Below the pieces are notes generated by a model that saw only the letters and a program-made list of their open reading frames with translations, had not been told where the DNA came from and did no database searches. A DNA stretch of 64,000 bases from Deltaproteobacteria bacterium (lineage in GTDB: Bacteria > Myxococcota > B64-G9). Numbering within the stretch: the first letter of the stretch is position 1; the number at the start of each line of letters is the position of its first letter. The translations under genes and the position numbers were made by a program. The stretch lies in contig JAFGRB010000424.1 in the NCBI GenBank assembly GCA_016935365.1, positions 1 to 64,000 on the forward strand, written 5' to 3'. Positions 30,840-31,730 of this stretch are shown piece by piece.

Positions 30840-30870
30840 CGTCATACGCCAATATCGGCCCGGGTAAGTG

Positions 30871-30899
30871 TTGTGCCCGCCAATCGGTGGCGCTATCCT
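30871..30899 (+). promoter_or_regulatory. Candidate sigma-70 promoter
   Basis: TTGTGC (30871-30876), a 17-bp spacer and TATCCT (30894-30899). It is placed about 40 bp before the ATG of the unknown gene at 30940, which has its own GGAGG. Confidence 0.35.
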
Positions 30900-30939
30900 C
30901 GACCATGACCGGGTCCGAGCCCGGGCTGCGGAGGCGCGG

Positions 30940-31530
30940 ATGTTCTGCTTCATGACCAATCTCCCCCGCCGGACGGACGGCTTCAAGCCCGACCTGCCGG
31001 AGGACTGGGGCTTCGTGGAGCTGGCCAGACCTGTCGGGGTGGGCGACTGGTGCATCGCGCGCCTGGGGCCGCCCAGCTCGTTCTGGAACGGCGGCGATCT
31101 GGAGCTGCCGCCCGCCTGCGAGCCGCTCGACGAGGCCTGGTCGCGCGTTCTCGGCTCCGGGCTCAGCTGGCCGCCGGCGCTCGCCTGGGCGCGGGAGATC
31201 GCCTCGACCGGCTGGGCGGGCTCACCCGGCGACAGGCAGGGATTCGGCCGGGCCTACGTGGACCTGGTCGAGGCCTACCTGCGAGGCCAGCCCGCTTGCC
31301 CCTTCTTCCTGGCCCTCTCGCTCACCCAGGGGCTGATCGGAGGCCGGCTGGCCGGCGCCTGGGTCTGGATCGTGTCGCTCGAGCCCAACGGCCGGGTGGG
31401 CTACGTGGGGCACGACTTCGCCATCTATCGGGCCAGGGCGCAGGAGCTCGAGATCTCACCCGAGCGGCTCGAGAAGCTCTCGACATGGATGGAGCGCAGG
31501 CCGGCAGAGCTGGCCACCTGTCCGAGCTGA
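30940..31530 (+). CDS. Unknown cytoplasmic protein
   Basis: 196 aa, not recognised. ATG 30940 is preceded by GGAGG 5 bp away. There is no signal peptide or clear membrane helix; a mildly hydrophobic stretch CPFFLALSLTQGLIGGRLAGAWVWIVSLEP lies near 125-155. Notable segments are FVELARPVGVGDWCIARLGPP and VGYVGHDFAIYRARAQELEISPERLEKLSTWM. The Trp content is high. It is divergent from the CPFC membrane protein gene and is followed by the first hairpin array. Nothing allows a function to be proposed. Confidence 0.6.
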   Translation: MFCFMTNLPRRTDGFKPDLPEDWGFVELARPVGVGDWCIARLGPPSSFWNGGDLELPPACEPLDEAWSRVLGSGLSWPPALAWAREIASTGWAGSPGDRQGFGRAYVDLVEAYLRGQPACPFFLALSLTQGLIGGRLAGAWVWIVSLEPNGRVGYVGHDFAIYRARAQELEISPERLEKLSTWMERRPAELATCPS

Positions 31531-31544
31531 CATGCTCTGGTGCT

Positions 31545-31730
31545 GCCTAGTCCTAAAACAAGCGCGGTTTCCACGCCGCGTTTGTTTTCAGGGCTGGCCG
31601 CCCGAAGGGCGGTCGTTTTGGGGTGAAGCTGCTGGAATCGTATTCCAGCAGCGAGGGGGCATTGCGAAAGCCCCCTGAGATGGTATTAGGCCTGAAGCAA
31701 GCGCAACGCGCTTGTTTCAGGCCTAGTCCT
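31545..31730. repeat. Five-hairpin intergenic array with inverted ends (MITE/REP-like)
   Basis: Five hairpins follow one another. (1) 31555-31567 with 31576-31588, 13 bp including one G-T. (2) 31596-31603 with 31607-31614, 8 bp, GAA loop. (3) 31628-31638 with 31642-31652, 11 bp perfect. (4) 31654-31660 with 31670-31676, 7 bp. (5) 31687-31704 with 31708-31725, 18 bp with one G-T and a 3-base loop. The two ends are inverted copies (31552-31566 against 31721-31707, 14 of 15 bases), and GCCTAGTCCT occurs directly repeated at 31545-31554 and 31721-31730. It separates two convergent genes; hairpin 5 includes the stop codon of the DUF4442 gene. A 29-bp part around hairpin 2 recurs inverted at 63972-64000. 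Confidence 0.85.

Follow-up and report, generated by a model that had tools for sequence, protein, structure and literature searches.

Here we describe a compact, hairpin-rich element found in the window (the whole 64,000-nucleotide stretch of contig JAFGRB010000424.1 that was analysed), where it lies between two convergent genes and is bordered on both sides by the tetranucleotide CTAG. The features of the locus are as follows:

30868..31530, plus strand: convergent neighbouring ORF (220 aa) without a Pfam hit; 15 bp separate its end from the left duplication
31546..31551, no strand: left target-site duplication, cCTAGT; the N on either side of CTAG agrees in 20/24 and 18/24 complete copies
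31552..31721, plus strand: element body, very probably a MITE, 170 bp without the duplicated site; sharp boundaries in copies
31552..31592, plus strand: hairpin 1, the left terminal inverted repeat and an inverted second copy of the same repeat
31597..31613, plus strand: hairpin 2, GCCGCCCGAAGGGCGGT
31628..31652, plus strand: hairpin 3, stem of 10-11 bp, GCTGCTGGAAT
31654..31676, plus strand: hairpin 4, AGGGGGC..GCCCCCT
31691..31721, plus strand: hairpin 5, the right terminal inverted repeat, a near-perfect palindrome of two end sequences head to head
31722..31727, no strand: right target-site duplication, CCTAGt; the minus-strand TAG at 31723-31725 is the DUF4442 stop codon
31723..32208, minus strand: DUF4442 gene (PF14539, E 1.7e-31), whose stop codon served as target

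The dispersed repeat unit spans window positions 31547-31726, from the left CTAG to the right CTAG (180 bp); these limits come from the comparison of copies, in which the element boundaries are sharp at CTAG. Read inward, both ends begin with CCTRAAACAAGCG—the right end of the window copy is CCTGAAACAAGCG—and a CCTRAAACAAGCG-type sequence is found at both ends of complete copies. The terminal inverted repeats are formed by the outer arms at 31547-31566 and 31707-31726, which are 20 nt long and 90% complementary. The 180-bp unit, CTAG ends included, has no coding capacity of note and no transposase gene. A sequence-only reading of the region had described five tightly packed hairpins whose outermost arms are inverted copies of each other, with no coding capacity; this description held, and all five hairpins could be placed within 31552-31721.

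A search of the source genome (a 7.74-Mb draft) with a 206-bp query gave at least 45 scored matches, with the best 40 of 189 candidates scored. The end motif CTAGNCCNNAAACAAG has 161 exact occurrences (58 + 103), compared with none for the reversed control; uniqueness in the genome, which the sequence-only reading had singled out for checking, is thus not found. We read 169 distinct insertion flanks, up to 48 of which are accounted for by the 24 complete copies, and estimate the copy number at roughly 85-145, or about a hundred. Many copies break contigs, and at one locus (L035, 504-762) two elements stand in tandem with one shared CTAG, one having inserted at the CTAG that ends the other. An end match was found in only 1 of 38 relatives, and the exact core pattern was absent from a collection of 84,980 genomes (which possibly does not hold the source genome); the family in its present form therefore appears to be private to its own lineage. 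With the core pattern absent from this collection, no sister genome showed an empty site.

The flanks of the 24 complete copies—14 full-length, together with shorter or rearranged forms—were compared after pairing the ends by hand; automatic pairing had given false inner pairs involving the inner arm of hairpin 5. The base before CTAG is the same on the left and the right in 20 of 24 copies (6.9 expected by shuffling) and the base after CTAG in 18 of 24 (6.6 expected). All 20,000 shuffles fell short of this agreement, and all other flank positions are at expectation. Because only the N positions beside CTAG agree between the two sides, the target-site duplication is 6 bp long, NCTAGN, and reads CCTAGT in the window copy. 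A mismatch at an N position is seen in 4-6 of the 24 copies, and a solo 41-bp hairpin (L106, around 2501-2541) has inverted flanks, gcactCTAG...CTAGagtgc, with no direct NCTAGN repeat. The 10-base direct repeat that had been noticed at the borders, GCCTAGTCCT, is indeed present twice, at 31545-31554 and again at 31721-31730; however, the duplication is only its central 6 bp, CCTAGT. The match over all copies stops after these 6 bp, so the remainder of the 10-mer is element end and coincidence.

The ends of the element point to a particular family of insertion sequences: the terminal sequences of IS1380-family elements match CCTRAAACAAGCG in a genome from the same taxonomic family but a different genus, and in about 14 cases elsewhere. 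In the former (G006; contig JAFDKH010000369 of a deltaproteobacterial MAG), the end motif CTAGTCCCAAAACAAG closes an element that bears a transposase of 511 aa from the IS1380 family (NF033539, 2e-80; PF13701) and has CTAGCCCCACAACAAGC as its other end; in the same-family genome, the NF033539 gene lies between CTAGCCCCACAACAAGCATACTCTGA and CTAGTCCCAAAACAAGCGTACTCTGA. A scan for relatives of this transposase yielded 59 loci, and 36 were tested besides JAFDKH010000369 itself; about 14 of the 36 IS1380-type loci, from Planctomycetota, Acidobacteria, and others, have CCYNAAACAAGCG-type ends and CTAG-type flanks on both sides. The end form at these loci is CTAGNCCYNAAACAAGCG with small departures (and TTAG in place of CTAG in one), and the four proteins checked from CTAGNCCYNAAACAAGCG-ended loci were all IS1380 by NCBIfam. 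Among the IS1380 ends compared, most share 12-13 of their 13 positions with the window element, and several IS1380 copies in other genomes are without a perfect NCTAGN duplication. The IS1380 subgroup with CTAG-flanked CCYNAAACAAGCGWA ends (for example, JAFDKH010000369 and L109/L212) shares the same terminal 13 bp and the flanking CTAG with our element; in contrast, an IS1380 insertion sequence is about 1.9 kb long, carries a transposase gene, and has no end hairpins, whereas the present element is 170 bp long and gene-less.

The IS1380 transposase model had no match in the window's own assembly, and it is therefore from the ends only that we infer an IS1380 partner. Two longer, hairpin-free ends with the same 13 bp as the MITE ends do occur in the source genome: end (a), CCTGAAACAAGCGACCTTTATAG..., in 7 copies and end (b), CCTAAAACAAGCGAAGAACATA..., in 4. 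All have CTAG outside and run off contigs, and both ends match some IS1380 ends at 13 of 13 positions; they probably belong to a multi-copy autonomous partner whose interior was collapsed and left unbinned. The end CCTGAAACAAGCGACCTTTATAGTCGGGGGTATTGACAAAAC... is found on seven contig edges (the right ends of L052, L053, L057, L078, L090, and L097, and L114/L207) and the end CCTAAAACAAGCGAAGAACATATAGC... at L075 and L157-L159; these edges are likely the two ends of the missing autonomous insertion sequence. An IS1380-family DDE transposase would bind the element ends and excise the element, which would then be joined to a CTAG site with creation of the 6-bp duplication.

At the window locus this site was the end of a gene: the DUF4442 gene ends in ..GAC TAG at the right duplication, and its stop codon is the TAG of the right CTAG. 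The sequence-only reading had placed this stop in the right arm, and its DUF4442 assignment is borne out by the PF14539 match (1.7e-31); its suggestion that the element had settled into a gene end is right and holds for the family at large. Among the 24 complete copies, 16 have a target TAG that closes a neighbouring coding-like frame as its in-frame stop, compared with 21 of 69 other CTAG sites used as controls (P = 0.002); when each flank is counted separately, TAG serves as a stop in 58/169 cases versus 28/168 controls (P = 0.00015), with the coding test behind these counts resting on a home-made codon model. The pattern is not evident at a glance in the IS1380 copies of other genomes, viewed with no organism-specific coding model, and for this reason we claim the stop-codon habit for the source genome only.

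Since the stop is restored by the duplication, the encoded protein is not altered by insertion. CTAG is rare: its trinucleotides predict 66 occurrences in the window, where 20 are present. Roughly one CTAG site in three is a stop codon, at which the duplicated CTAG restores TAG; insertions there would be cost-free and hence kept, and insertions inside genes would be lost. The survival of harmless insertions is the simplest reason for the stop-codon excess and suffices to explain it—an active preference is unneeded. In keeping with such landing at stop codons, a survey of insertion sequences found IS1380 to be over-represented between genes (PMC9208149).

The element itself seems to be composite. 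CTAG directly follows hairpin 1 in 30 of 68 copies (CTGG in most others), and the inner boundary of hairpin 5 is CTAG-like (TTAG, CTAAG, or CTAG). Both hairpins also occur alone: hairpin 1 at L083 (53 bp, aCTAGG on both sides), and hairpin 5 at L106 and at L063 (41 bp, flanked by cCTAGA left and right). Hairpins 1 and 5 are thus each little short of a whole small element. On this anatomy, the most plausible account of the 180-bp form is that two palindromic mini-elements flank a segment of ~90 bp and now move together with it; hairpins 1 and 5 would have mobilised this segment, which contains hairpins 2-4. Shorter forms of 78-141 bp with intact duplications exist and look like internal deletions, which are expected for palindromes. 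At further loci (L077, L082, L086, L169, L171, and L172), hairpin 5, in two subfamilies, is followed at the same junction by a different interior, CATAGCGCGGGCTGACGCCCGCAACCCAAGTTGGAACGGCGTCGC...; these appear to represent a longer composite relative that carries other cargo and is cut by contig ends.

The sequence-only reading had offered either a mobile element of MITE or REP type or a structured RNA. A dispersed structured RNA or 3′-UTR element—acting as terminator or mRNA stabiliser, with the hairpins preserved by that function and mobility incidental or past—would account for the strong RNA fold (−121 kcal/mol on the plus strand compared with −77 ± 4.3 for shuffles, z = −10.1; z = −7.5 on the minus strand), the gene-end preference of the copies, and the terminator-like match of hairpin 5. 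It would also fit the conservation of structure among copies, which had been proposed as a check and is indeed seen: over 26 copies and 58 pairs, 97.7% of cells are paired and 7 pairs show double changes, a result reached by none of 500 shuffles. However, five of these seven pairs lie in hairpin 5 (hairpins 1 and 3 have one each), and hairpins 1 and 5 are inverted ends whose arms may be kept as transposase sites; hairpins 2-4 hardly vary, and little can be said from them for or against selection on pairing. Because hairpins 1 and 5 are built, on either arm, from transposase end sequences, covariation alone is no proof of RNA function, and the outer hairpins would be kept for this reason in the mechanism we propose. 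An Rfam search of the region returned nothing, even with the threshold at E <= 1; the terminator tail CCTTCTTCTT is external to the element and particular to the window site; and the target duplications show insertion. We consider a structured RNA unlikely; the mobile-element part of the earlier alternative stands, and an RNA or terminator role is not needed as an explanation. A secondary effect of the hairpins on mRNA 3′ ends is possible. Two ordinary bidirectional terminators would suit the convergent genes that flank the window copy, but the same 180 bp recurs with fixed ends in tens of unrelated places, other copies sit in other gene arrangements, and there are no terminator-suited T tracts inside the element; the dispersed copies and target duplications exclude this explanation, to which we give practically no credence.

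Alternatives to an IS1380-type enzyme were also weighed. An element of REP/REPIN type, mobilised by a RAYT (Y1 transposase), would share the high copy number, the inverted hairpins, the extragenic positions near gene ends, and a tetranucleotide at the hairpin base; Y1 enzymes are not known to make a target duplication. The clear 6-bp duplication is contrary to such enzymes, most comparisons of the inverted-repeat ends with IS1380 ends give 12-13 identical bases out of 13, and we judge this origin very improbable; REP type in the strict sense, named in the sequence-only reading, does not suit an element with terminal inverted repeats and a 6-bp target duplication. That the element is a MITE of another CTAG-targeting IS family, such as an IS5-type, gains some plausibility from a known MITE with CTAG/YTAA duplication (MITEPsy1, PMC3189936) and from an assembly without an IS1380 gene, but is quite unlikely given that CCTRAAACAAGCG and flanking CTAG were seen around IS1380 transposases both in one genome of the same family and across several phyla. 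We conclude with considerable confidence that the element is a gene-less MITE that duplicates NCTAGN, is by inference driven by the IS1380 family, has a composite build, and is enriched at stop codons. The dispersed copies, target duplication, conserved structure, and IS1380-like ends all agree with the non-autonomous element of MITE type that had been suggested; it would be a new MITE family whose composite build is uncommon and whose most likely driver is IS1380.

ERIC, Correia elements, and RUP are, like the present element, 100-200 bp long, high in copy number, extragenic, hairpin-rich, and non-coding; they differ in their ends and target (TA for Correia and RUP), a distinction drawn from general descriptions, with the Rfam search (no match) as the comparison by sequence. 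ISEcp1, one of the main vehicles of resistance genes, is itself an IS1380-family member. MITEPsy1 of Pseudomonas syringae (100 nt, with 18-nt inverted repeats) is likewise small and non-autonomous and duplicates CTAG or YTAA; in contrast to our element, it has other ends, a 4-nt duplication, and no five-hairpin composite build, and is thought to derive from ISPsy2 (PMC3189936). TIMEs are Tn3-derived miniature elements that form mosaic units, and resemble our composite in that paired miniature elements mobilise the intervening DNA; however, they are Tn3-type, make 5-6 bp duplications in AT-rich targets, and form units of 262-3892 bp (PMC4133298). In the literature searched—mostly non-subscription papers, with ISfinder outside its scope—we found no description of an IS1380-derived MITE.

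What makes the family interesting is chiefly the target rule, the palindromic units, and the way copies land at stop codons. A family of ~100 copies reveals which end sequences are kept as well as the target rule NCTAGN, and rebuilt stop codons would explain simply how a transposon can build up many copies in a tightly packed bacterial genome at little cost. The family also serves as a warning that 3′-UTR hairpins in such genomes may be transposon ends, not selected regulators. We tentatively put forward a further idea, which we regard as possible though rather doubtful: the minimal mobile unit may be a single palindrome of ~33-44 bp from an IS1380-type family—two ends head to head—that pairs with another to mobilise the intervening DNA, with stop codons as a safe harbour since the NCTAGN duplication rebuilds TAG, and with the hairpins then becoming a shared 3′ UTR of many genes.

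Related genomes hold other elements of similar kind. In a related genus (G003), two ends CTAGTCCTAAAACAAGCGYAGTTTTATAACAAAAATGACCCCATGACAA were seen on contig C119, at L107 around 1501 and L108 around 2016, and appear to mark an element family of its own with the same terminal motif. In a relative, at L124 (986 and 2544), another IS1380-family element has ends CTAGCCCGGATTATTCATGAA and a CTAG-like site; this would be a second end type within the same family of genomes.
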